IMG/VR virus record: IMGVR_UViG_3300006854_000258
Span: 1 to 48,681 of that record
Direction: 5' to 3' (one strand)
Length of the DNA stretch: 48,681 nucleotides
Source of the DNA: a virus
In this document: piece after piece, positions 1 through 34,067 of the stretch
Position numbering within the stretch: position 1 is the stretch's first letter
Layout of the letters: every line of letters starts with the position of its first letter
Notes under the pieces: model-generated
Databases searched by the model: none
Told to the model about the DNA's origin: nothing
The model's input: the letters and a program-made list of their open reading frames with translations, nothing else
Position numbers and translations under genes: made by a program

Positions 1-411
1 TTGCCCACGGTGCACGTGAGCACGCCATCGCCCGAGACCATGCGCCGAACGCGCGAGCGCGCGGTCGCCGCCGGACGCTGCCGCACCTGCTGCAGCCACG
101 ATTCCCGCCCCCGGCCCGGCTACAAGCTGTGCGATCGCTGCATCGCGCTCGGCAACCTGCGCCAGCTCGGACGCCGGCTGATGGCGCTGCTCGCCGGGCT
201 GTGCGTCCGTTGCCTAGGTGAGCGCAGGCCGGATGAGACCCGTTGCTCCGGATGCCGGGCCGTCCGGCGGGCAAAATATGCGCATTCCAAGGAAGCTACC
301 CCGGACGTAACCGTACACAATTCGTCCACGGGCGATTCTCCTAAGCATGAAGATTCTGCACATCGAGGATCACGGACCGACGGCGAAGGTTGTGGGGCGC
401 GTACTGGCTAA
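1..411 (+). CDS. Cysteine-rich zinc-finger protein, 5' end possibly outside the window
   Basis: The protein has four CxxC-type pairs (CRTC near residue 27, CDRC near 43, CVRC near 68, CSGC near 82) spaced like two tandem zinc knuckles, with many Arg residues; nucleic-acid binding is an inference. The frame is open from base 1, where TTG could be a start or an internal Leu. The partial gene at 48517-48681 ends in a phase that would continue exactly into this frame if the two window ends join. The last 65 bases overlap the receiver-domain gene, so the C-terminal tail may be poorly constrained. No family name can be assigned. Confidence 0.6.
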   Translation: MPTVHVSTPSPETMRRTRERAVAAGRCRTCCSHDSRPRPGYKLCDRCIALGNLRQLGRRLMALLAGLCVRCLGERRPDETRCSGCRAVRRAKYAHSKEATPDVTVHNSSTGDSPKHEDSAHRGSRTDGEGCGARTG

Positions 412-670
412 GGCGGGCCACACGGTCGTTAACGTGACCACTCCCGAAGCGGCTTGCACGGCCCTGCAGCATGGCGGATACGATTTGGTGGTGAGCGATT
501 TCAACATCGAAGGCGGCACGGCGGCCGAGGTGGTGGCGTCGCGCGGCTCGGCCCGGTGGGTGTGGCTCACCTCGGACGAAGATTGCTTGCGCCATCTCGC
601 GGCGCCGTTCGTGCAGAAACCGGCGCTCCCAAGCGCGATCGTCGCGGCCGTGGCCGAGGTGGCATCGTGA
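347..670 (+). CDS. Stand-alone response-regulator receiver (REC) domain
   Basis: A 107-residue protein covering one receiver domain and nothing else. The acidic pair E7/D8, the phospho-acceptor D51 at the end of a hydrophobic strand (DLVVSD), the switch T75 and the conserved K91 followed by Pro are all present, so it should be able to accept phosphate. There is no output domain, as in CheY- or Spo0F-like proteins. Its partner is unknown; a host histidine kinase is the obvious candidate. It starts the GTGA-coupled accessory operon and overlaps the end of the upstream zinc-finger gene. A REC domain is unusual cargo for a phage. Confidence 0.85.
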   Translation: MKILHIEDHGPTAKVVGRVLAKAGHTVVNVTTPEAACTALQHGGYDLVVSDFNIEGGTAAEVVASRGSARWVWLTSDEDCLRHLAAPFVQKPALPSAIVAAVAEVAS

Positions 671-6435: not shown

Positions 6436-7403
6436 CAACTCCTTGTCAGCTCGTCGAGAGCGGGCTCTTGATAGCACGCGCATCCGATCAACTCGCCAGG
6501 CATGTCATCCGGCGGATCGTCTTCGGAGAAACGCTCGCCATCGAGATCGATGTGCTCCTGCCGATCGTTGGGGCCGTACGGCTTGCGGTGACGCCAGATC
6601 CAGCCGACGCCGAGCGCGCTGATGCGAGCGTCGGCGTACGCCGCATCCGCCTTGCCGATCTGATCGCTCGCGATGATGTCGGCCCGCGAGCGCGCAACAT
6701 CGAGCCGCTCTTCGACCAGCGCGCGGAGCTCGTCCTCGCTCTTGCCCATGCCGGCGTGCAGCACGCCAGCGATCTGCTCGTGCGCGCGCGATCCGAGCGA
6801 GTCGATCAGCTGCCGATTGCGCGCCACGAACCGGCGCTCGATCGCGCCGTGTCCGGCGTCGCCGACATAGAGCGGCGTCCCGAGTCGTGCCTTGACCTGC
6901 CGATCGAATTGCGCTTCCTGAAAGCGCGATGCCTGCCGCGCGATCTGCGCGAGTCGCTCGGGCGCGCGTGCGGCCTCGGTGTGGTGCTCGAGCATCCGGG
7001 CCGCTCGCTCGATCGCGTGCTGCGTTGCTGCCGCGTCACCAGCCGCTGCATGCGCGATCGCAGGCTTGATCAGGTTGCCAAGCTCACCGACAAGGCGCCG
7101 CAGCTGCGCGCCATACGACGCCGTGATCGCGGTGGGCTCGGCCGGCCTCGGCATCCTGCGCGGCGCGCTGTGGCCGGGCACGAACCGGCCGCCTTTCCGT
7201 GATGTCGGCAGCACGGCCCGCCGCTGCGCGAGCTGTACCTTGGCGCGCGATAGCCGGTCGATCGCCGCGCTGTCATCTCGACGATCGGGGTATGCATGAT
7301 GCAAGGCAATCGCGCGCGCGACGCCGGGCTCGTATCCCGACGCGATCAGCTCGGCGATGTTGGCCGCAATCACCTCATCCGATGTGCCAGGCAAGAGCGG
7401 CAT
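6435..7403 (-). CDS. MuF/SPP1 gp7-type head morphogenesis protein
   Basis: 322 residues. An N-terminal helical region opens with a pattern common at the start of phage head proteins (a substrate-like PLLPGTSDEVIAANI). The long Ala/Arg-rich helical middle is followed by a C-terminal MuF-type domain: ADIIASDQIGKADAAYAD, then WRHRKPYGPNDRQEHIDLDG and GCACYQEP. MuF proteins sit near the portal, are packaged in the capsid, and can carry ejected activities. The gene lies downstream of portal and fibre genes, as expected for a portal-linked head protein. Well-supported family call; details of function inferred. Confidence 0.8.
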   Translation of the reverse strand: MPLLPGTSDEVIAANIAELIASGYEPGVARAIALHHAYPDRRDDSAAIDRLSRAKVQLAQRRAVLPTSRKGGRFVPGHSAPRRMPRPAEPTAITASYGAQLRRLVGELGNLIKPAIAHAAAGDAAATQHAIERAARMLEHHTEAARAPERLAQIARQASRFQEAQFDRQVKARLGTPLYVGDAGHGAIERRFVARNRQLIDSLGSRAHEQIAGVLHAGMGKSEDELRALVEERLDVARSRADIIASDQIGKADAAYADARISALGVGWIWRHRKPYGPNDRQEHIDLDGERFSEDDPPDDMPGELIGCACYQEPALDELTRS

Positions 7404-7418
7404 CGCGATCAGGGTGGC

Positions 7419-8780
7419 TCATAGATTCGACGAATCCAAGAAAAAGGCAGGCATCCCACCTGTCCACGCGCCTTGTATCCCGGGTGGCGGCGCCGGATTC
7501 GGCAATGCGCCGCCGACCACGATCAGCTGCGCGAGCGATCCAGCGACGATCGCAGCATCGACATCGAGGCTGCCGGGCCACGAGCTCGCCAGAATGAGCC
7601 GATCGAGCGAAGTCGCAGGGGGCGTCGGACCGAATGCGGCGATACCTGCGGTGGTACCAGCCGCGTTCACGCTGCACGCAATAAAGTAGGGGACCCCGGC
7701 CGAGAGCGTGAGATTGAGCGCGTTGTACACCGATCCCCACTGGGCAATCGCCGTCGAGAATGCGGTCTCGGGCGCGAGGCGCAGCAGCGACGACAGTTGA
7801 TAGATCGCGATCCGGTAGATGTTCGCGGTTATGCCGACGCCGAGGAAACGCACCTTGTTAACCACGAGATCCTGGTCGAGCACGAACGTCGAGATCCGCG
7901 CGGTCGTTGTCCCGATGTTCGTCGGCGTCGGGTTGGCTGGTGTCGCGCCGAGTCCCTGCATGCGACGAAGGATCGGGCCCGGATCACCGTTCCCATACGC
8001 GGCCGCAATCTTCCCCCACCACCGTGGCAGCGCGACGCCGAGTGTGGTGCGCATCGCCGCAGCGTCGGCGTCATCCATCAGCGCGCGCCCGGCCGCGGTC
8101 ATGTCGGACAGCTTCGTCATCGGCAGCGATGCATCTGCGACACGCGCCGCGGCGAGCGTGCCCGCGCCGATGTCGCTCGCGCTACCCGACGCCGCGATCG
8201 CGGCGAGCCCGGTCACCTTCGCCGCCGGGATGGTGTCGGCGGGGACATCGAGCGCGCCAGCAGTGACGTGCACGTAGCCCGTGCCGCTCGGCGCCGGGCC
8301 CGCGGGCCCCGTGGCACCTTGGATCCCCTGGATGCCTTGCGCCCCTTGCGCCCCCGCGTTCCCCTGGGGGCCCTGCGCTCCGGTGGCCCCTTGCGCTCCG
8401 GTCGCGCCTTGGGGACCTTGCGGGCCCGCGGGCCCCGTCGCTCCGACCGCGCCATCAGCACCATCGGCACCCGGTGGCCCCTGCGCGCCGTCCGCGCCAT
8501 CATCGCCAGCCGGACCGGCGGCGCCTTGGGGGCCCGCGGGACCTTGAGCGCCGGCTGCGCCGGTCAGACCTTGCGGACCCTGCGGACCTTGGGGACCCTG
8601 TTCGCCGCTGCCGGCCGCTGAGACAAGCTGCCAAGCGAAGAAGTCGCCGGTGTTGCCGCCGACGAAGGCGACGAGCCGGCAAACGTCGTCATCCATCCAA
8701 CACGCATATGGCGACTCACCATGACGCGGAGGCCGAAGCCCGAAGACACGCGGATCGCGCGGTGTCCTACGAAGCCGCAT
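7419..8780 (-). CDS. Collagen-like tail fibre protein
   Basis: 453 residues. Residues about 60-166 are an almost unbroken collagen-type Gly-X-Y run ([20 protein letters not shown]), expected to form a trimeric rod. The part before it ([22 protein letters not shown]) may attach to the particle. The C-terminal 280 residues include a helical [14 protein letters not shown] segment and a beta-rich jelly-roll-like domain likely to bind a receptor. Upstream GGGGTGG lies near the ATG at 8780. It sits between portal and MuF genes, an odd place for a fibre, on the opposite strand from the other tail genes. Confidence 0.75.
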
Positions 8781-8798
8781 CGGCCACCCCGATTCGGA

Positions 8799-10313
8799 TC
8801 ATGCCGCCGATGGTCGCACGGCGCGCTGATCTTCGGGGTTGGCTTCTCCGTCAGCCGCCTTCGCAGGCTTGATGTCGCGCTCGACAACATCGCCCGGAGC
8901 GCCAGCCTTCGGCGGGATCACGCCGTTCTCGAGCAGCGCCTCCCGCTGCGCGGCATCGAGCTTGTCCTGTTTCTCCTGCGCTTTCTTCGCAGCCTCGCGC
9001 GCTTTCCAGTCGATCTGCATCTCCATGCTGTACGTGTCGCCGCCCCACCGCGAGGTAGCGATGTCATCCCCGCTCGCAGACCCGATGTTGAAATAGATCT
9101 CGTCGGCCTGCGCGACCTTGAGCCGCGTATCGGCGAGCTCGGACTCGTCCGGCGCCCACAGCGGCCGCCATTCGATGCTCCACACGTCGGGCTCCTTGCC
9201 CTCCGTCGGACCATCGGCCGACAACATGATCAGCTGGATCCCGCGCTCGACCAGCGGCTCGAGATGGTGCTGCTCTTGCGCGGCCTGATCGTAGAAGAAG
9301 GCGCGATCGCTTTCGCCCGTCGCGTTCATGCCAGCCGGCGAGATGCCGAGCAGCTTCGTCACCGGCATGCGCCCCGCGGCCGCGAGGCGCGCGGCCAGGC
9401 GATCGAGCACGTCGGCATAGCCGGACATCGGCGTTTGCTGACGGCTGAAATCGTCCGTGGCATCGAGCACGATCGCGCGCAGCGTGCTGCGCAGCAGGTC
9501 GATCTGCGTAAGCCGCGCCTGCGCCTTTTTGTCGTCGCCTTGATCGACGAGATCCGAGAGCCCGCTGATCTTGTAGACCGTCTGCGCGAAGTCCTGCAGG
9601 AGTCCAGCGGCCGCGCCCCACGAGAGCCCGAAGTCGCGGAGTACCGTGTAGACGCGCGTCAGCACCGAATCGTCCCAACCGTTCAGCTGGCCGGGCTGCT
9701 GCCGCCGCGTGACGCGTTCGCCGCGGAAGATCATCAGCCGCGAGCGGTGGATCAGGATGCCTTGCGGAGTCGTGCCAGCCATGCCGCCCGTGATGATCGG
9801 CTGCAGCCGGTACATCGTCGGCTGGCCGAACGTTGGCGACATGATATCGCCATCCCAGTCCTGTGCGATCAGCTCGCGCGACTCGAGCACGTGCAGCGCG
9901 CGGACCTTCGTCCACGTCCCATCGATGAGCTGCTCGGAGAGCTCGCCAGGCGCGCCATCGAGCACGGGGAAGATCGCAGCGCCGCCGGTCGCGCGCGCGA
10001 GGCAACGCGCATGGAGGATCGCGTGATCGAGCCCGATCTCTTCGGCCACGCCCGCGATCTCTTCCGCTTGATCCTTGTCCTCGGTCTTGATCTCGTAGCC
10101 GCGTCGGAACGCCTCGCACGGGTAGGTCTCGACGATCGTGCGCGCGAGATCGTCGCTGCGCCACAGCTCGAGACCGAGTAGATCGTTGGCGCACTCGGTG
10201 ACCGCGCGTGCGCCCGTTCGCTTGTCACGTTGCGTGAGCAAGCCGGTGATGATGTTCCCCCACCCATCGTTGCGGAGGACGTTGAGCACCTGTTCGCGAT
10301 CGGCGTCGCTCAT
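8799..10313 (-). CDS. Portal protein, DUF1073 type
   Basis: 504 residues from the ATG that overlaps the RHH stop. Features of the DUF1073 portal family include WRSDDLARTIVETYP near the start, the central TPQGILIHRSRLMIFRGE, an ISGLSDLV stretch and the late TKLLGISPAGMNATGESD. Portals form the dodecameric ring at the capsid vertex through which DNA passes. Databases sometimes label this family Acb1-like; the head-gene context here supports the portal role. It is transcribed away from protease and capsid genes, which is unusual. The tail is charged and ends in a Lys/Ala-rich segment. Confidence 0.8.
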   Translation of the reverse strand: MSDADREQVLNVLRNDGWGNIITGLLTQRDKRTGARAVTECANDLLGLELWRSDDLARTIVETYPCEAFRRGYEIKTEDKDQAEEIAGVAEEIGLDHAILHARCLARATGGAAIFPVLDGAPGELSEQLIDGTWTKVRALHVLESRELIAQDWDGDIMSPTFGQPTMYRLQPIITGGMAGTTPQGILIHRSRLMIFRGERVTRRQQPGQLNGWDDSVLTRVYTVLRDFGLSWGAAAGLLQDFAQTVYKISGLSDLVDQGDDKKAQARLTQIDLLRSTLRAIVLDATDDFSRQQTPMSGYADVLDRLAARLAAAGRMPVTKLLGISPAGMNATGESDRAFFYDQAAQEQHHLEPLVERGIQLIMLSADGPTEGKEPDVWSIEWRPLWAPDESELADTRLKVAQADEIYFNIGSASGDDIATSRWGGDTYSMEMQIDWKAREAAKKAQEKQDKLDAAQREALLENGVIPPKAGAPGDVVERDIKPAKAADGEANPEDQRAVRPSAA

Positions 10314-10477
10314 GGCTTGACGGTACTCGAATCGCGGCCGGGCGCGAATTCTGCGAGATATCGGCGCAGCGCGCGGCGCACCACGGTCGAGATCGTTTGT
10401 CCATGCGCCTCGGCGGTTGCGTGCAGCGTCGCCTGTAGCTTCTCGTCGATCGTCACGTAGAGGTGCGGCCGGCTCAT
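10310..10477 (-). CDS. Ribbon-helix-helix (CopG/Arc-type) regulator
   Basis: 55 residues. The opening HLYVTIDEKLQATLHATAEA is the expected beta strand plus helix A, and GQTISTVVRRALRRYLAEF is helix B with the conserved turn. Such proteins bind DNA as dimers using the strand. It overlaps the portal start (ATGA) and is transcribed with it. A perfect 14-base palindrome lies 34 bases upstream in the divergent gap, a plausible operator for self-regulation. A regulator fused in one operon to portal is unusual. Confidence 0.75.
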   Translation of the reverse strand: MSRPHLYVTIDEKLQATLHATAEAHGQTISTVVRRALRRYLAEFAPGRDSSTVKP

Positions 10478-10583: not shown

Positions 10584-11759
10584 ATGCGATTCGTCGAGTC
10601 GATGGGGCTCGAATATCGGATCGACGCGGCGTCTTCGCTGAAGTCGCCCGTTCGCACCGAGCAAGGCTTCCTGCGCCTCGATGGGCTCGTCTCGCGACCG
10701 GGGATCTACCAGTATGAGGATCCCAAGATGCCCGGCGGATGGCGGCGCGAGCTCCTGCCGCGCGATGTCGCGTTCGACGCCGCGGCGCTCGCCGGCTTCG
10801 AAGGTGCGCCGGTCACGATCAATCACGTGGCGAAGGTGACGCCCGGGAACGTGAAGCGCTTCGAAGTCGGCACCGTGCTGTCAGCTCGCCAGGACGGTGA
10901 CGCGGTGGCGGCGACGATGGTCATCAAGGATGCCGACGCCATCAAGGCGATCGAGGCCGGCAAACGCAAGCTGTCCCCCGGCCGCGCGATCCAGTACGAC
11001 CCGACTCCGGGCAACGATCCAGAATTCGGACGATACGACGGGATCCAGCGGCTGACGAAGGTCAACCATCTGGCGATCGTCGACATCGCGCGCGGCGGCG
11101 AGCAGATGCAGCTGCGCATGGACGGCATCGACGTGCCCATCGCGGCCGAAAAGGAGCCCGACGTGAAGAACCCCGACGACAAGACCGAGGCCGCCGCGGC
11201 CGGCGGCGATCAGCAGCGCGATGACGGCGGCGACGCCAGCGCGCAGACGATCAAGACCCTGAACGAGCGGATCGCCACGCTCGAGACACAGCTCGCGGAT
11301 GCCAACCGCACGCTCGAGAGCGAGCGGATCGCGGCCGCGAACACGCGCGCGGACGGGCTGCAGACGCAGCTCGAAGCGCAGGCCAGCACGCTGAACGAGA
11401 ACGCGGTCAAGCGCGCTGCGCTGATCGTGCAGGCGCAAGCCGTCATCGGTCCGACGTTCGACGCGATGACGATCAGCAACCGCGATCTGCAGACGCTCGT
11501 CATCAAGAAGCTGCGGCCGAACGACAACACCGCGGTGATGAGCGATGCGGCGTGCAGCGCGCGCTACGATGCGCTCGTCGAGACCACCGTGCGCGGCCGC
11601 GAATCGCTCGCGGCCGCTGGCGCCGCGCTGATCGGCGGGCTCGAGACGGCGGCCGGGATCGAGCAGAAGAAGTCCACGACCGAGCAGGAGCGCGCCGCGA
11701 AGATGAAGGCGCACCGCGAGCAGTGGAAGCAACCCCTTCCCTCCACACAGTGGAAGTAG
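10584..11759 (+). CDS. Prohead protease-scaffold protein, DUF2213 type
   Basis: 391 residues. The N-terminal ~190 residues match the DUF2213 group: FLRLDGLVSRPGIYQY, GAPVTINHVAKVTPGN, then RKLSPGRAIQYD and KVNHLAIVDIARGG. Herpes/HK97-type prohead proteases show this arrangement with His and Ser. The C-terminal half is acidic then a long coiled coil (TLNERIATLETQLADANRTL), typical of fused scaffolding. It is probably cleaved and lost during capsid maturation. The exact catalytic residues are not certain. First gene of the plus-strand structural operon. Confidence 0.75.
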   Translation: MRFVESMGLEYRIDAASSLKSPVRTEQGFLRLDGLVSRPGIYQYEDPKMPGGWRRELLPRDVAFDAAALAGFEGAPVTINHVAKVTPGNVKRFEVGTVLSARQDGDAVAATMVIKDADAIKAIEAGKRKLSPGRAIQYDPTPGNDPEFGRYDGIQRLTKVNHLAIVDIARGGEQMQLRMDGIDVPIAAEKEPDVKNPDDKTEAAAAGGDQQRDDGGDASAQTIKTLNERIATLETQLADANRTLESERIAAANTRADGLQTQLEAQASTLNENAVKRAALIVQAQAVIGPTFDAMTISNRDLQTLVIKKLRPNDNTAVMSDAACSARYDALVETTVRGRESLAAAGAALIGGLETAAGIEQKKSTTEQERAAKMKAHREQWKQPLPSTQWK

Positions 11760-12318: not shown

Positions 12319-13344
12319 ATGAAGCCCCAAATGGAGAACCGCCTCGACTCGGCGTCTACCTACTTCCTGACGCAGCAGCTGCAGTCCCTCGATCCGACGG
12401 ACTACTACGAGCTCGTCCCCGGGCGCCTCGCGCGCCGCTTCTGTCCGCTGATCGGCAACGTCGCGCCGTATGATGAGACGTACAAGTATGCGCTGACGCG
12501 CCTCAAGGGCCGCGCGAAGGTCTCGGGCCCGAAGAGCAAGGCGGCGCCCACCGCGTTGCCCGTCCGCGAAGAGCGCGTCTCGCCGATCGTCGCCATCGAC
12601 GGGAGCTTCGGCTGGAGCTTCGACTCCATCCGCGCCGCGCAGCAGAAAAACATCAACCTCGATAACGACTGCTACCTCGCCGACCTGACGGCATCGGAGC
12701 AGACCGTCGACTCGATGCTCTGCTACGGCAACGGTGACGCGTTGACGCTCGGGACCATCCCCGGGCTGATCAACAACAACGTGACGAACGGTGGCGACAT
12801 CACGAACGTGGTGCCCGCCGCGAAGACCGGTGGCGGCGATTGGCTCGCCCCTGCGACGCCGATGGAAGAGATCCTGAAAGACGTCGTGGCGATGATCCAG
12901 GACGTGAAGAACGGGCTCAAGCAAGCGATGGCCGCGAACACGCGGGCGCCGATGTTCGAGACGTTCTCGCTGTTCCTTCCCACCGCGCTCTTTCACCACC
13001 TCGCGCTGCCGCGCAGCACGCAATCGGATATGAGCGTCCTGCGGTGGCTGAAGGCCAACCTGCAGGACCACGGCCTCACGGCGATCGAACCGTGGTGGCA
13101 GCTCGATGCGGCGGCGCCGGGCGCGTCGGCCGGCAAGGGCATGGCGCTGCTCGCGCCCAACATCACGAGCGGCGCGATCCATCCGATCGCCGGCGGCGCG
13201 CTCGTGCCGCTCGAGCACACGCGCGAGCAAGAGCAGTATGCGGGCCGCAACGTCGTGGTGCCGACGGTCACGCGCTGCGGCGGCTTTATCAACCGCTTCC
13301 CGATCGCGTTCCGCACGATGTTCGGGGCCGCCTTCGACGCGTGA
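12319..13344 (+). CDS. Major capsid protein, DUF2184 type
   Basis: 341 residues, ribosome site GAAAGGGA at 12301-12308. Family features include YYELVPGRLARRFCPLIGNVAPY near the N-terminus (written here in part), a segment with DGSFGWSFDSIRAAQQ, and a C-terminal REQEQYAGRNVVVPTVTR leading to FPIAF. These belong to the HK97-fold DUF2184 group. Length is on the expected scale for a protein needing no cleavage of a long delta domain. Sits right after the cement gene. Confidence 0.8.
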   Translation: MKPQMENRLDSASTYFLTQQLQSLDPTDYYELVPGRLARRFCPLIGNVAPYDETYKYALTRLKGRAKVSGPKSKAAPTALPVREERVSPIVAIDGSFGWSFDSIRAAQQKNINLDNDCYLADLTASEQTVDSMLCYGNGDALTLGTIPGLINNNVTNGGDITNVVPAAKTGGGDWLAPATPMEEILKDVVAMIQDVKNGLKQAMAANTRAPMFETFSLFLPTALFHHLALPRSTQSDMSVLRWLKANLQDHGLTAIEPWWQLDAAAPGASAGKGMALLAPNITSGAIHPIAGGALVPLEHTREQEQYAGRNVVVPTVTRCGGFINRFPIAFRTMFGAAFDA

Positions 13345-13359
13345 GAAAGGCCATGAGCG

Positions 13360-13719
13360 ATGACGCCACCGATCGTATGGACCGATGTTCTGGCGCATGC
13401 GCCTGAACTGTCCACGATCGCCGTCAGCGCTCAAGCCGATATCCTCGCGCTCGTGAACGACGCGATCCAGGAGAGCGCGTGGGGCTCGTCCTTTCGGACG
13501 AAGCTCGCGCGCATCTACTACGCCGCGCACCTCGCGACGGTCTCGCGATCGCTGTCGGGCGCGGGCGGCCCGATCGCGTCGGAGTCGGAAGGCGGCGTGT
13601 CCGTCACGTACGCGACGCCGCAGCAGATCACCACGACCGAGCTCGGAGAGTCGCGCTACGGCCGGCTGTATCTCGAGCTGCGGCGTCACCTTTCCGGGCG
13701 CGTCGGGATGGTGCTCTGA
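13360..13719 (+). CDS. Head-tail connector, DUF4054 type
   Basis: 119 residues. The long helical core (VSAQADILALVNDAIQES, then YYAAHLATVSRSL) followed by a flexible Gly-rich turn and a C-terminal segment with SRYGRLYLELRR is typical of DUF4054 connector proteins that dock on the portal. The stop shares a base with the next ATG (TGATG), and it follows the capsid gene, as expected. Confidence 0.75.
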   Translation: MTPPIVWTDVLAHAPELSTIAVSAQADILALVNDAIQESAWGSSFRTKLARIYYAAHLATVSRSLSGAGGPIASESEGGVSVTYATPQQITTTELGESRYGRLYLELRRHLSGRVGMVL

Positions 13720-14201
13720 TGGCGCTGCGCGGGGCGCTGTCCACGACCGTCGACGATCGCACGTGGCGCGCGTTGCGCGCTCACGTCGGCACGCTGTCGC
13801 GCGCCACGCTCAAGGTTGGGATCACGACGTCGGCGCGGCATTCGAAGGGCGACATCTCGCTCGCGGATCTCCTGGCCACGCACGAGTTTGGCGCGCCGCT
13901 CGCCGGCATCCCGGCGCGGCGGCCGTTGCGCTCGGCGTTCGCCGCGAAGCGCGACGCGTTCGCCAAGGTGATCCGTGCCGCCGTCGCCGCTGCGACGCGA
14001 CAGCGCAACCCCATCAGCGCGCTCGAGATGATGGACCGGATCGGCCGATGGGCGTCCGACATGGTGCGGACGTACATCAAGAGCACGAACCTGGCGCCGC
14101 CGCTGAAACCGGCGACGATCAAGCGCAAAGGTCACGCGCATGCGCTCATCGACAGCGGCGAGATGGTCGACAACATCGGCTACGCCGTCGAGGAACACTG
14201 A
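13719..14201 (+). CDS. Neck or tail-completion protein, HK97 gp10-like
   Basis: 160 residues. Features include ATHEFGAPLAGIPARRPLRS, a helix, then PPLKPATIKRKG and LIDSGEMVDNIGYAV, all typical of gp10/Mu gpG-like neck proteins joining head to tail. Basic overall. It lies between the connector and head-closure genes; stop and next ATG abut (TGATG). Good family match by pattern, function by context. Confidence 0.7.
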   Translation: MALRGALSTTVDDRTWRALRAHVGTLSRATLKVGITTSARHSKGDISLADLLATHEFGAPLAGIPARRPLRSAFAAKRDAFAKVIRAAVAAATRQRNPISALEMMDRIGRWASDMVRTYIKSTNLAPPLKPATIKRKGHAHALIDSGEMVDNIGYAVEEH

Positions 14202-14584
14202 TGGGTCTCGCCGATGTCATCGCGCGCTTCGGGACGGGTACCTACCAGGTGACGCGTCCGGCGATCGGGACGTGGGTTGATGGCCACTATGTCAACGAAG
14301 GCGCGCCTTCCACGTTCCCGATCGATGCGAGCGTCCAGCCGATGAGCGGCCGCGATCTGCGCGATCTTCCCGAGGGCATGCACGCCGAGGACGTCCGACG
14401 GCTGTGGACGCGCACGGAGCTTCGCACGGCCTCTACGCAGATTGGGGCATCGAGCTCGAACGCATCCGGCGAGCCCGACGTGGTCTCGATCGATGGCGAG
14501 GACTATCGCGTGGTGCGCGTCGAGCACTTCGCGATCCTCGATGACTTCTACCGCGTGCTCGTGGCTCGCCTGGGGGCGCCATGA
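14201..14584 (+). CDS. Head-closure/adaptor-like protein
   Basis: 127 residues. It has a beta-barrel-like layout (TYQVTRPAIGTWVDGHYV, then DGEDYRVVRVEHF) of the sort seen in head-closure proteins. Position between neck and tail-terminator genes supports this. No strict family motif seen. Ends by overlapping the next ATG (ATGA). Confidence 0.6.
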   Translation: MGLADVIARFGTGTYQVTRPAIGTWVDGHYVNEGAPSTFPIDASVQPMSGRDLRDLPEGMHAEDVRRLWTRTELRTASTQIGASSSNASGEPDVVSIDGEDYRVVRVEHFAILDDFYRVLVARLGAP

Positions 14585-15858
14585 TCGTCGCGACCATGGC
14601 ATCGCTGCACGGTCGGGAAGCGCTGCTTGAGCAGACCGTGGCCTCGCTCGCGCCGCAGGTCGATGCGATCTGCATTTACCTAAACGGCCACGATGAAGTG
14701 CCGCGCTTCCTCGCGCAGCCGAAGGTGCTCCACGCCGTGCTGTCGAAGGAAGCCGGCTGGCGTGGCGCCGAGGCAAAGCTCTGGTGGTGGGATCGCGATC
14801 TGTTCAAGGCTGCGCCGTCATGGGATCCCGATGACGTCGCGCTGATCGTCGACGACGACATCGTGTATCCACCAAATTATGCGGCTACGATGATGGCCGC
14901 ACTGCAGCGCCGGCCGGGGACAGCGGCATGTGTGCATGGCAGCGTGCTCGATCCGGTGATCCACAACTACGCGGGCTCGCGCTGGATCGCGCGCGCGGCC
15001 GGACCGCTGTCCGACGATGCGCGCTGCCATCTTCCGGGCACGGGAACGATGGCCTTCCGCGTCGGCACGTGGCGCCCGTCGCTGGCCGCGATCGAATGGT
15101 CGCATTGCGTGGACATCGCCGCCGGCCTGCAGCTCCGCGACGCCGGGATCGAATGCTGGGCTGCGGCTCGAACCGATGGCTGGCTGCGGCCGATGCTTCT
15201 GCCGAAGGGTACGAGCGTTTTCAAGCAACGCGTCGGGGCCGGCAACGATGCGATCGAGACGGCCATCTTGCAGCGGTCGCCATGGCCGGCGCTCGAACCG
15301 TTCGGCCGCGGCTGGATCCGACGCGGCATCCCACAGCCCGCGGCGTCGCCGTGGCTGCGCTCGATCCGCCCGTCACTCAACGCGCAGCTCCCGCCCACGG
15401 CCAGCCGGATGGTCGGGGATCGGCTCAAGGGCCGGGCCGGGATCGTTGTGGAGCTCGGCAGCGGGCACGGCAGCGCTCGGCTCGCCGCCGACCTCCCGCC
15501 CACCTGCCGGCTGGTCTCGGTCGAGCACGACGGCCGCTTCGTCGGACTCGTGCGCGACACGCAATACATCCATGCGCCGATCAAGGGTGGGTGGTACGAC
15601 CGCACGATCCTTCAGCAGCGCATGCCAGCGCCGCACGAGCAGTGCGCGATCGTTGTCGATGGCCCGCCCAAGCACATCGGCCGCAGCGGGCTTCTCGCCA
15701 ATCTCGATCTGTTCAGCGACGATGCCCCGATGATCGTCGACGACGTGCATCGCCCGGACGATCGCGAGCTGGCCGAGAAGCTCGCGCAGATCCGCGGCCA
15801 GCGCATGGAGATCGTGGATTGCGGCGGCCGCGCCTTCGCCGCGCTGGGGTGGCCATGA
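14581..15858 (+). CDS. Glycosyltransferase-methyltransferase fusion
   Basis: 425 residues in two parts. Residues 1-200 look like a GT-A fold glycosyltransferase: IVATMASLHGREALLEQTV, a WGCGA-free Trp-rich WWWDRDLF, then LIVDDDIVYPPNY with the metal-binding DDD. Residues about 275-425 form a class I SAM methyltransferase domain: VVELGSGHGSARLAADLP (motif I), SVEHDGRFV with the acidic residue, and VVDGPPKHIGR near 360. DGPP is common in methyltransferases acting on sugars. It is tightly coupled (ATGA both sides) inside the head-tail operon, so it may glycosylate and methylate a particle protein or an envelope sugar. The substrate is unknown. Confidence 0.7.
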   Translation: MIVATMASLHGREALLEQTVASLAPQVDAICIYLNGHDEVPRFLAQPKVLHAVLSKEAGWRGAEAKLWWWDRDLFKAAPSWDPDDVALIVDDDIVYPPNYAATMMAALQRRPGTAACVHGSVLDPVIHNYAGSRWIARAAGPLSDDARCHLPGTGTMAFRVGTWRPSLAAIEWSHCVDIAAGLQLRDAGIECWAAARTDGWLRPMLLPKGTSVFKQRVGAGNDAIETAILQRSPWPALEPFGRGWIRRGIPQPAASPWLRSIRPSLNAQLPPTASRMVGDRLKGRAGIVVELGSGHGSARLAADLPPTCRLVSVEHDGRFVGLVRDTQYIHAPIKGGWYDRTILQQRMPAPHEQCAIVVDGPPKHIGRSGLLANLDLFSDDAPMIVDDVHRPDDRELAEKLAQIRGQRMEIVDCGGRAFAALGWP

Positions 15859-16415
15859 GCGCGATCGCGTGGGACACCATCGAGTCGGCGCTCGCGACAT
15901 GGGTGCGCACGGCGTGCGCGCTCGGCGAGCACAACGTCGCGTGGTCGTACGAGCTGAAACCCCGTCCGCACGTTCCGTTCGCGTCGCTCACGCTGTCGGA
16001 CATCCGCACGATCGGCCACGACTGGATGATCACCGATGACGCGCCACTACCGGCGCCAGGCGAAGAGCTGCGGATCCGCGCGCGTGGTGTTCGCTCCGCA
16101 TCCTTCGAGGTGCAGCTCGTGCCCGATGGGGCCGTCGAGTTGATGCGGCGCGCAGCCGGCGATCTTGTCGCCTCGGTGCCGCTCTTCGTGTTCACGCTCG
16201 ACGAGGCCGGCATCGCGATCGAAGACATCGGCCCCGTTCGCGTGCTGACCGGCGACCGCGGCAGCATCCTCGAACCACGAGCGATCGTGGAGTTTCGCAT
16301 CGGCCTCGCTTCGGAGCTCGAGTCGCGCACCACGTACATCGAGCGCGTGAACATCAAATCCGCCCCCCTTGGGATCGACCTCTGGATCCCCGACCCACCC
16401 CCTCCGGAGAGCTGA
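15855..16415 (+). CDS. Tail terminator / neck protein
   Basis: 186 residues. A helix with Trp (WDTIESALATWVRTAC) opens the protein, followed by KPRPHVPFASLTLSDIRTIG, typical of the LIC12616-like neck terminator family, and a beta-rich C-terminus ending in Pro-rich IPDPPPPES. Terminator proteins cap the tail tube before joining the head. Position just before the sheath gene agrees. Confidence 0.7.
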   Translation: MSAIAWDTIESALATWVRTACALGEHNVAWSYELKPRPHVPFASLTLSDIRTIGHDWMITDDAPLPAPGEELRIRARGVRSASFEVQLVPDGAVELMRRAAGDLVASVPLFVFTLDEAGIAIEDIGPVRVLTGDRGSILEPRAIVEFRIGLASELESRTTYIERVNIKSAPLGIDLWIPDPPPPES

Positions 16416-16417
16416 AC

Positions 16418-17776
16418 ATGTCGCTTGATGACCATGTGGAAATCACCGTCAACCTGGGCAACGCCGGCGTGGCGCGGCTCGGGTTCAAGCTGCCGATGAT
16501 CCTCTCCCACGTCGCGACGTTCGGCGAGCGTATCCGGTACTACTCGAGCGTCGCCGAGCTGATCGACGACAACGTGGTGCCCGAAGACGGCGGCGAGGTG
16601 CGGGCGGCCACGAAGATGATGGCGCAGTCCCCGCACGTGAAGCAATTCGCGATCGGTCGTGCGGTCGGCGACGTCACGCAACGCTATGCACTCGCGCTCG
16701 TGCTCGCCAGCGATGCCGAGATCTACAAGCTCAAGGTGTGCGGCGTCGGCTTCGACGATACGATCGTCACGGTCACGCCAACCGGCGGCGACGGGAACGA
16801 CGACATCATCGGCGATCTCGTGACGCAGCTGCAGGCCGTGGTTGGCCGCAACTACACCGCGACCGTGGTCCCCGGCGCGTCGGATACCGATACGCTGCTG
16901 ATCACGGGGACGGCGGCCAACAACTGGTTTTCCGTCGAGGTGCTCGATCCGCGCCTGATGACGATCGCGCAGACGCACGCCGATGCGAACGTCGATGACG
17001 ATCTGACCGCGATCGAGCTTGTCGATTCGTCGTGGTACGGCCTCGTCACGCTGTACAACTCGCGCGCCTACTGCGACACGGTGGCGGAATGGATCGAAGC
17101 GCGGGTCAAGACCTACTACTGCGCGTCGGGCGACACCGAGAGCATCATCGGGGTCTACACGGTGAACGTGTCCGCCGACGTGCTCGCCGGGCTGATGGAT
17201 GACGGCCGGCGCCGCACCATCGGCATCTACCACGCGTCGCCGTGCGACTTCGCCGACGCCGCGCTCGCGGGCAAGCTGATGCCGAAGACGCCGGGCACCT
17301 GGACAGCGAAATTCAAGGATCTGGCGAGCGTCACGCCCGACTCGCTCACCACCACGCACCGCAACAATCTCAAGGCGCGGCGCGCGAATTTCTACGTCAC
17401 CGAGGCCGGCCGCCGCATCACGGCCGAGGGCACGGTTGCCGACACCGTCTTCGGCTTCTTCGATGTCGTCGTGGGCGTCGATGCGTTCGTCGACGATCTG
17501 CAGAAATCGATCTTCGGCGTCATGCTCGCGCAGGACAAGATCGCCTATACCGACGAGGGCATCGCTTCGATCGAGTCCGCGGCGCGCGCGAGCGCGAACC
17601 GGTGGGCTGAGATCGGCGTGCTCCGCACGGACCCCGCACCGAGCGTCACGTTCCCGCGCGTGGCCGACATCGATCCCAGCGTCCGGGCGCTGCGCGAGCT
17701 GCCCGATGGCGCCGTCAACGCCGAGCTCGCCGGCGCCGTCCACAAGACCAGCATCACCGTCAACCTGACCGAGTGA
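16418..17776 (+). CDS. Contractile tail sheath protein, DUF3383 type
   Basis: 452 residues with a ribosome site GGAG just upstream. DUF3383 features: DDHVEITVNLGNAGVAR at the start, SVAELIDDNVV near residue 47, a central inserted beta domain with VTPTGGDGNDDI, and a C-terminal helix-rich part (SIFGVMLAQDKIAYTDEGI) ending in TSITVNLTE. The sheath contracts to drive the tube into the host, so the particle is a myovirus type. Followed by the tube gene with nine bases between, as expected. Confidence 0.85.
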   Translation: MSLDDHVEITVNLGNAGVARLGFKLPMILSHVATFGERIRYYSSVAELIDDNVVPEDGGEVRAATKMMAQSPHVKQFAIGRAVGDVTQRYALALVLASDAEIYKLKVCGVGFDDTIVTVTPTGGDGNDDIIGDLVTQLQAVVGRNYTATVVPGASDTDTLLITGTAANNWFSVEVLDPRLMTIAQTHADANVDDDLTAIELVDSSWYGLVTLYNSRAYCDTVAEWIEARVKTYYCASGDTESIIGVYTVNVSADVLAGLMDDGRRRTIGIYHASPCDFADAALAGKLMPKTPGTWTAKFKDLASVTPDSLTTTHRNNLKARRANFYVTEAGRRITAEGTVADTVFGFFDVVVGVDAFVDDLQKSIFGVMLAQDKIAYTDEGIASIESAARASANRWAEIGVLRTDPAPSVTFPRVADIDPSVRALRELPDGAVNAELAGAVHKTSITVNLTE

Positions 17777-17784
17777 GGTAGCCC

Positions 17785-18216
17785 ATGGCGTTTCGTCGAT
17801 ACAATCCCAAGCGCGTGGCGATCTCGTTCGCCGGCCTGCAGCTCGTCGGCTTCATGGACGGCACGTTCGCTGCGTTCCAGATGGACGAGGATCAGGTGAT
17901 GCGAACGGTCGGAGCCGATGGCTTCGGCGTCGCCACGCTCAACGCGAATCTCGGCGCGACCGTCAAGATCACGCTGATCCAGGCGTCGCCGTCGAACGAC
18001 TCGCTCTCGGCGCTGCTGCCCGATCCGATCAACGGCCGCCTTCCGACCGGCGAGTTTCAGATCAAGGATCTGAACGGTACGACGCTGCTGCACGCGAAAG
18101 ACGCGTACATCGTCCGCGTGCCCAACGTGGATTACGCCAAGGAAGTCGGCCCGCGCGAATGGACGTTCCAGCTCGATTCCGTGGATACCTACTTGGTCGG
18201 CGGCAGCGACGAGTAA
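17785..18216 (+). CDS. Tail tube protein, DUF3277 type
   Basis: 143 residues. RRYNPKRVAISFAGLQLVGF at the start and DEDQVMRTVGADGFG near residue 35 are typical of the DUF3277 tube family, followed by alternating strands that would form the inner barrel. It stacks in rings inside the sheath. Ribosome site GAGGTAG lies upstream. Position after the sheath supports the call. Confidence 0.8.
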   Translation: MAFRRYNPKRVAISFAGLQLVGFMDGTFAAFQMDEDQVMRTVGADGFGVATLNANLGATVKITLIQASPSNDSLSALLPDPINGRLPTGEFQIKDLNGTTLLHAKDAYIVRVPNVDYAKEVGPREWTFQLDSVDTYLVGGSDE

Positions 18217-32855: not shown

Positions 32856-33700
32856 CGCGTCCTCGGAAACGCCGAGTGCGACTCGCCATCGAGCATCGGC
32901 AGATGGATCGTCTGGCCGATGTACGTCACCCCGTTGGGATTCGCGATCCCCGGTGGCACGACACGTCCGGCCCATTGCTTGAAGTGAAACGCCACGCCGT
33001 GGCGCTGCGCAGCATCGCGCGCGACGCGCACCCATTCGACATCGGCCGGGCGCCCGCTGTGGCCGGACTCGTCGCCGATGATGAGCCAATGGATGCGCTC
33101 GAGACTGCGCGAGTAGCCGAGCGTGAGATCCCACGTGTCCGCCCCGATGAATTCGAGGATCGGCTCGCAGCTCACGAAGCGCACGTCGGCCTGGATCCCG
33201 CGCAGCGTCAGGATGCGCTCTTCGGCGCGGCCATTGTCTTCGGCCGTCACGCCGAGCCACACGTTGGACCACGGGAAGCCCGACGGGATGCCGGCGTCGT
33301 ACCACGGCAGCATCTTCGAGAAGTTTTCGGGCCGCTTCGTCAGTAGCAGCCAATCCAGATGCGGCGTCGCAAGGATCAGATTCCACAGCCGGCGGCGATG
33401 CGGGATGAGATCCTGCCGATCCTCGAAGACGTCGGCCATCGACGCGCAGAAGACGCGGCGGCGTTCGCCCGCTTTCTCGGCGGCTGCGTTCCAGCGGCGC
33501 GGCTGATCCCAGTGCTTATCGCCGAAGAAACGCCGCGGCGCGTTCGGTCCCCAGTGCGGCGGGCTCTTGTCATTCACGAATCGGCGATCGAACGCCTCGG
33601 CGTAGCAGTTGCGGCACGCCTCGCTCACGCGAACGCAACCCCACCACGGGTTGAACGTGTGATCACACCACGTAATCTCGGTTTTCTCACCCACGGCCAT
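32852..33700 (-). CDS. DUF5131 protein (phage Gp37/Gp68 family)
   Basis: 282 residues, ribosome site AAGGAG. EITWCDHTFNPWWGC and SEACRNCYAE near residue 30 give the three-Cys cluster of this family; DWLLLTKRPENF and SNVWLGVTAEDN follow, then FVSCEPILEFI and a late IIGDESGHSGRP. Family members have a radical-SAM-like TIM-barrel appearance and often pair with TcmP proteins, but no such partner is visible here. Biochemical role unknown. Confidence 0.8.
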   Translation of the reverse strand: MAVGEKTEITWCDHTFNPWWGCVRVSEACRNCYAEAFDRRFVNDKSPPHWGPNAPRRFFGDKHWDQPRRWNAAAEKAGERRRVFCASMADVFEDRQDLIPHRRRLWNLILATPHLDWLLLTKRPENFSKMLPWYDAGIPSGFPWSNVWLGVTAEDNGRAEERILTLRGIQADVRFVSCEPILEFIGADTWDLTLGYSRSLERIHWLIIGDESGHSGRPADVEWVRVARDAAQRHGVAFHFKQWAGRVVPPGIANPNGVTYIGQTIHLPMLDGESHSAFPRTR

Positions 33701-34067
33701 GCTCCTTTCGCGCCTCGTCGACAGCGGCAAACATGCGATCACGCGCGTAATTCGCCGACGGACGATCATCGTCCCGGATCGCATCGCATAGATCGCAAGC
33801 CGGTTCGAACACGGCAAGCCGCTGTCCGTATTCGCGTTCTGTTTCCAGCATCCGGCATTGAAGCCGTCGCACTTCCTCGATCAACTTGGGGACGAGCGTC
33901 CGCGCCTCGGCGATGAAACGGGCATCCTCGGGCGCCTCGCCGACGTCGGCGACCCACAGGCCGTTAGCATCGATGACGATGCAACGGCCGTGATCATCCT
34001 GCGCCCACACCCATGGACCGGGCTGCGTTGCGAGCTTGCACAGCGCCTCGGCTTCGAGCACCTCCAT
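33687..34067 (-). CDS. Hypothetical protein
   Basis: 126 residues. ALCKLATQPGPWVWAQDDHG, DANGLWVADVGEAPEDARFI is a pattern I know from many uncharacterised bacterial and phage proteins. It ends in a helix with CDLC and a basic tail (ARDRMFAAVDEARKEHGRG). Ends 14 bases inside the DUF5131 start. Confidence 0.55.
   Translation of the reverse strand: MEVLEAEALCKLATQPGPWVWAQDDHGRCIVIDANGLWVADVGEAPEDARFIAEARTLVPKLIEEVRRLQCRMLETEREYGQRLAVFEPACDLCDAIRDDDRPSANYARDRMFAAVDEARKEHGRG

Follow-up and report, generated by a model that had tools for sequence, protein, structure and literature searches.

Why should a phage have a gene that encodes both a glycosyltransferase (GT) and a methyltransferase lodged between those for head closure and the tail terminator? 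The window analysed here is a whole viral record of 48,681 bases (GC 67%), which by its gene content belongs to a contractile-tail phage, and the gene is an open frame running from ATG to TGA in the head–tail operon (Table 1). An earlier note had read its product as a GT-A domain joined to an S-adenosylmethionine (SAM) methyltransferase domain, and had suggested that it might place methylated sugars on the particle or alter a sugar of the host surface. The motifs on which that reading was built, LIVDDDIVY (residues 88–96), VELGSGHGS (residues 290–298) and VVDGPP (residues 358–363), all fall within a single frame of 425 residues. Searches of Pfam, PHROG and NCBIfam assigned no family to this protein, so its identification comes from searches of the PDB and from folding.

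Table 1. Features of the fusion gene and its operon in the window (residue numbers are those of the fusion protein)
Feature	Coordinates	Strand	Basis and remarks
Portal	8799-10409	-	
Prohead protease	10608-11759	+	
Major capsid protein	12319-13344	+	PF09950, phrog_264; candidate acceptor
DUF4054	13360-13719	+	
Neck1	13716-14201	+	
Head closure / head protein	14198-14584	+	phrog_939 3e-15
GT–methyltransferase fusion gene	14581-15858	+	425 aa, 46.4 kDa, ATG to TGA open frame
KfiA/PmHS2-type GT-A glycosyltransferase domain, residues 1–244	14581-15312	+	profile and model
DDD motif, residues 91–93	14851-14859	+	invariant in 33 relatives; putative donor/metal-binding role, from the family
Linker, residues 248–265	15322-15375	+	pLDDT below 50, low confidence
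Class I (COMT-like) SAM methyltransferase domain, about residues 270–425	15388-15855	+	model, fold match
Methyltransferase motif I ELGSGHG, residues 291–297	15451-15471	+	
DGPP motif, residues 360–363	15658-15669	+	D360, G361 and P362 invariant; D360 possible metal ligand
DD, residues 387–388	15739-15744	+	invariant; possible metal ligands with D360
Tail terminator	15855-16415	+	PF23961; phrog_7975 3e-7
Tail sheath	16418-17776	+	phrog_205 3e-74; candidate acceptor
Structural protein after sheath	17785-18216	+	candidate acceptor

We favour, with moderate confidence, the proposal that the fusion protein is a self-contained enzyme that would glycosylate a virion protein with a HexNAc-type sugar and then O-methylate that sugar, with activity, sugar and acceptor all putative. 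A soluble, cytoplasmic two-domain enzyme would be produced along with the head and tail proteins; the donor for its KfiA-type domain would be a UDP-sugar, most likely host-made UDP-GlcNAc, and the acceptor of the sugar would probably be a phage structural protein. The attached class I methyltransferase would then O-methylate the transferred sugar with SAM, in a presumed order and at a presumed oxygen, leaving the virion with a methyl-capped glycan. Bacteria normally contain UDP-GlcNAc, so the phage could do without sugar-synthesis genes of its own. Several observations point to this reading.

First, the N-terminal half is related to the polysaccharide synthases KfiA and PmHS2 by both profile and model. 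Searched as a single sequence against solved structures, the fusion protein alone matched the heparosan synthase PmHS2 (8e-10) and KfiA (6e-7), and a family profile that includes it matched the same domain of PmHS2 at 3.7e-60 and KfiA at 9.4e-43. With few relatives in the alignment, the GT half did not model; it was solved after adding relatives found in viral contigs by the motif DDDI(V/I)YP, among the matches listed, and the resulting AlphaFold2 model of the fusion protein has a mean pLDDT of 85.7. Structure prediction of both domains was a check that the earlier note had put forward, and the top structural match of the GT model is PmHS2 with polysaccharide in its GlcNAc-transferase site (Z 28.3 over 231 residues, 2.4 Å), followed by KfiA (Z 24.8), whereas EXTL2 and the polypeptide GalNAc-transferases score far lower, at about 14–16. 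R12, D91–D93, I94, Y96, P97, Y100, H119 and D178 are invariant across the 33 aligned rows, and G120, G153, T154, G155 and W201 nearly so. By homology and by its modelled GT-A fold, then, residues 1–244 form a KfiA/heparosan-synthase-type GlcNAc-transferase domain.

The domain is homologous to E. coli K5 KfiA and to the GlcNAc-transferase domain of PmHS2, with which it has in common DDDI-YP, HG, GTG and a later D and W, at 23–26% identity. UDP-GlcNAc is the donor from which KfiA transfers GlcNAc (PMC12834895). KfiA and PmHS2 make heparosan, however, whereas the phage domain is joined to a methyltransferase in a head–tail operon. That these enzymes build polysaccharide, not protein glycan, counts against a virion glycan and is one ground for the main rival explanation, namely that late in infection the enzyme changes a host surface polysaccharide or lipid-linked precursor and so lowers re-adsorption of progeny or superinfection: the closest solved relatives of the domain build capsular polysaccharide (PMC12834895). 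We return to this explanation, which we think unlikely, with the evidence on the gene's position and its relatives.

Second, the C-terminal half has a COMT-like fold, with a sugar O-methyltransferase among its matches. Modelled confidently even from few sequences, it aligns with COMT (Z 13.4 over 147 residues, 3.0 Å) and with the 3′-O-methyltransferase MycF (Z 11.7). It contains the motifs ELGSG, SVEHD, GGWYD, DGPP and VDDVHR; E291, G293, S294, G295, W338, Y339, D360, G361, P362, R368, D387 and D388 are invariant across phage and bacterial relatives, and the acidic residue after strand 2, E315, is nearly invariant among them. The Rossmann-like fold of the model, the motif I glycines and this acidic residue identify the half as a predicted class I SAM methyltransferase, in which D360 and D387–D388 may form a metal site, as the COMT-like fold suggests. 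The class I O-methyltransferases COMT and MycF have the same fold over residues about 262–425 and presumably corresponding acidic D...DD positions, but are only about 14% identical to the phage domain, for which a Pfam search returned no family. The earlier assignment of both domains to one protein is thus borne out by profile search and confident structure prediction.

COMT-like folds serve many substrates and the low-confidence linker is probably flexible, both of which would suit two domains with different substrates, the GT glycosylating one molecule and the methyltransferase acting on a protein or small molecule, fused for co-expression only. This arrangement seems improbable to us in view of the company that the methyltransferase keeps: in phages and bacteria, the same type is found with unrelated GT types (KfiA-type, phrog_1574, GT2-TPR and Glyco_trans_1_2), as expected if the transferred sugar is its substrate.

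Third, the gene is tightly coupled to virion genes. Its start overlaps the head-closure stop as ATGA and its stop overlaps the tail-terminator start, again as ATGA; with the neighbours identified by phrog_939 on one side and phrog_7975 and PF23961 on the other, the coupling described in the earlier note holds on both sides. From this gene anatomy, the fusion protein is predicted to be translated together with its head and tail neighbours. Its GC3 of 0.83 falls within the 0.81–0.91 of neighbouring genes. A hydropathy scan found no transmembrane segment in the 425 residues (top 19-residue value, 1.13). The missing transmembrane segment speaks against modification of the host surface, as does the fact that the gene overlaps its head and tail neighbours and does not form a separate moron unit. 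Gene position is nevertheless association, not proof, of a virion target. Phage GTs acting on host proteins or nucleic acids exist, and a non-structural target of this kind in the infected cell would have such precedents; we judge it very improbable for a gene that sits among head and tail genes. DNA modification in particular was set aside, as glycans are the substrates of the nearest GT relatives and the scanned parts of the record gave no hint of base hypermodification.

Fourth, the fusion recurs at the same site in an independent phage and is conserved there above its surroundings. One related contig (L001) is the same phage, 99.99% identical over 12 kb. A search for the same fusion in other structural operons, also proposed earlier, found a different phage (L002) that has it in the same slot, with 56–57% identity over the full length, compared with 28–46% for capsid, DUF4054, neck, head closure, terminator, sheath and tube. 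Where present, the fusion gene appears from these identities to be kept more strictly than its neighbours. A chance open reading frame or an assembly chimera is ruled out by these two contigs, given that the fusion is conserved in the independent phage. In four other phages (L111, L112, L113 and L115), related along the operon at about 22–44%, head closure is followed directly by the tail terminator and no GT–methyltransferase was found within the 11.6 kb read, although the gene could lie elsewhere in their genomes; the empty site marks the fusion gene as an accessory insertion.

The remainder of the window has features of its own. The portal and minor head genes (6438-10409, minus strand) are divergent from the protease–capsid–tail module (10608 onwards, plus strand), an unusual way for head genes to be divided. 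A collagen-repeat protein (7419-8780, minus strand; PF01391 3e-17) is encoded between the genes for the portal and for a Mu F-like minor head protein, and its Thr-rich Gly-X-Y repeats make it, as a guess, a candidate glycosylation acceptor; it had no match in L002, in a search that repetitive sequence may escape. An open reading frame near the start of the record (347-667, plus strand) resembles a CheY-type receiver as judged by eye, and a DUF5131 protein (32858-33817, minus strand; PF07505 5e-67) lies in the part of the record opposite the late genes.

Fifth, related domains and similar fusions adjoin head genes in other phages. Searches with the full-length fusion protein gave no match in GenBank phages at 1e-5, nor in genome contigs, and relatives were therefore traced through the methyltransferase half. 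This led to proteins of about 425 residues in which the same methyltransferase type is fused to a GT distinct from the KfiA type, phrog_1574, which is annotated as of unknown function. At least 167 viral contigs contain a relative; among the best 80 of the 167 that were kept (L027–L106), 78 of 80 open reading frames have the C-terminal methyltransferase match and 61 of these fusions are distinct at 90% identity. Upstream of them, across 43 loci, 40 of the 70 open reading frames scanned are the phrog_283 major head protein and the others are mostly scaffolds; head-tail adaptor Ad3, head closure Hc3 and tail proteins are among those downstream. In GenBank record MW202691, the fusion lies between coat and endonuclease genes on one side and the P22 tail accessory factor on the other. 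The fusions of P22-like phages (MW202691, L005) therefore resemble the protein described here in the order of GT and methyltransferase, in the methyltransferase type, in length and in their place in a virion operon, but differ in GT family and in a slot that follows the coat gene, not head closure. The earlier note had called such a fusion at this site uncommon. That judgement stands for the site, given the four related phages without it, and for this GT type; it does not extend to the kind, with 78 viral GT–methyltransferase fusions among the best 80 of 167 contigs, mostly just after the P22-like coat gene, in addition to that of phage Che8 considered below.

KfiA-type GTs of phages, of which the motif alone fetched at least 120 loci, adjoin major head, head protease, portal and head-morphogenesis genes as well as GT2, FkbM and other methyltransferase genes, among the matches listed; this association with head genes is one of position, a tally of families and not a statistic. 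In one contig the GT directly follows the portal gene (L179), in another it overlaps a Methyltransf_24 gene (L154), and in a third it is part of a 668-residue protein with a Methyltransf_24-like domain at its C-terminal end (L132). Several viral contigs (L189, L116, L186 and similar) also encode two-GT proteins that join a GT2 domain and a KfiA-type domain, with either one first. For modification of the host surface, there is a Geobacter metagenome-assembled genome with a glycan-type locus that encodes a relative of the methyltransferase domain joined to a Glyco_trans_1_2 GT; against it, other phages repeatedly have these domain types at their head genes.

The fusions seen so far, namely KfiA-type (14581-15858), phrog_1574-type (P22-like phages), GT2–TylF (Che8) and KfiA-type with a Methyltransf_24-like domain (L132), would be compatible with several origins of GT–methyltransferase fusions in phages, and with a single-gene system, widespread and for the most part unannotated, by which phages of many kinds write methyl-capped glycans on their virions, a generalization whose chances we consider even. 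The fusion gene offers a small enzyme that lends itself to testing and whose GT homologue has been well studied, and in other kinds of phage these two predicted activities are repeatedly found fused at head genes. Should the generalization be true, phrog_1574 and its fusions, a large family now without an assigned function, would gain a likely one; glycans on virions would then be common among phages and would matter for phage stability, immune recognition and contact with the host. The repeated emergence of such fusions at virion genes would be a more general point than the single case.

Finally, phage enzymes are known by experiment to glycosylate the virion in a small number of mycobacteriophages, with an effect on recognition by antibodies, and the location of the gene, its relatives beside head genes and these precedents together make a methylated sugar on the particle, the first of the two roles suggested earlier, the leading reading. 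The capsid and tail tube of Che8 are glycosylated by the phage's own GTs, as stated in PMC12363180, which cites Freeman 2023. Its gp108 (L236 46172-47347, NC_004680), annotated only as a glycosyltransferase, is a fusion of GT2 and TylF/Methyltransf_24 domains whose methyltransferase half resembles the known sugar methyltransferases MycF, CalS11 and NovP. Like the protein described here, gp108 is a single phage-encoded chain with a GT followed by a SAM methyltransferase (391 versus 425 residues); unlike it, gp108 is built from other domain families, and its gene cluster lies at the right end of the genome, outside the head–tail operon. Profile comparison of Che8 gp108–gp110 with both halves of the fusion protein gave no significant match (best 1.3–4.3 bits), a point against the virion-glycan reading, so the two proteins may work alike but are not the same enzyme families. 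In Corndog, O-methyltransferase and GT genes lie between portal and protease, and both methyl and glycan modification of the capsid were proposed by the authors (PMC4351075). Compared by description, Corndog gp35–gp38 likewise combine an O-methyltransferase with GTs, one a putative GlcNAc-transferase, in a virion gene region (PMC4351075), but there each enzyme has a gene of its own. The fusion gene is thus a phage-encoded GT with a methyltransferase linked to virion genes, of the kind found in Che8 and Corndog. Phage virion glycosylation and methylation are already known as a kind; what is new is a KfiA-type GT fused to this methyltransferase type at the head–tail junction.
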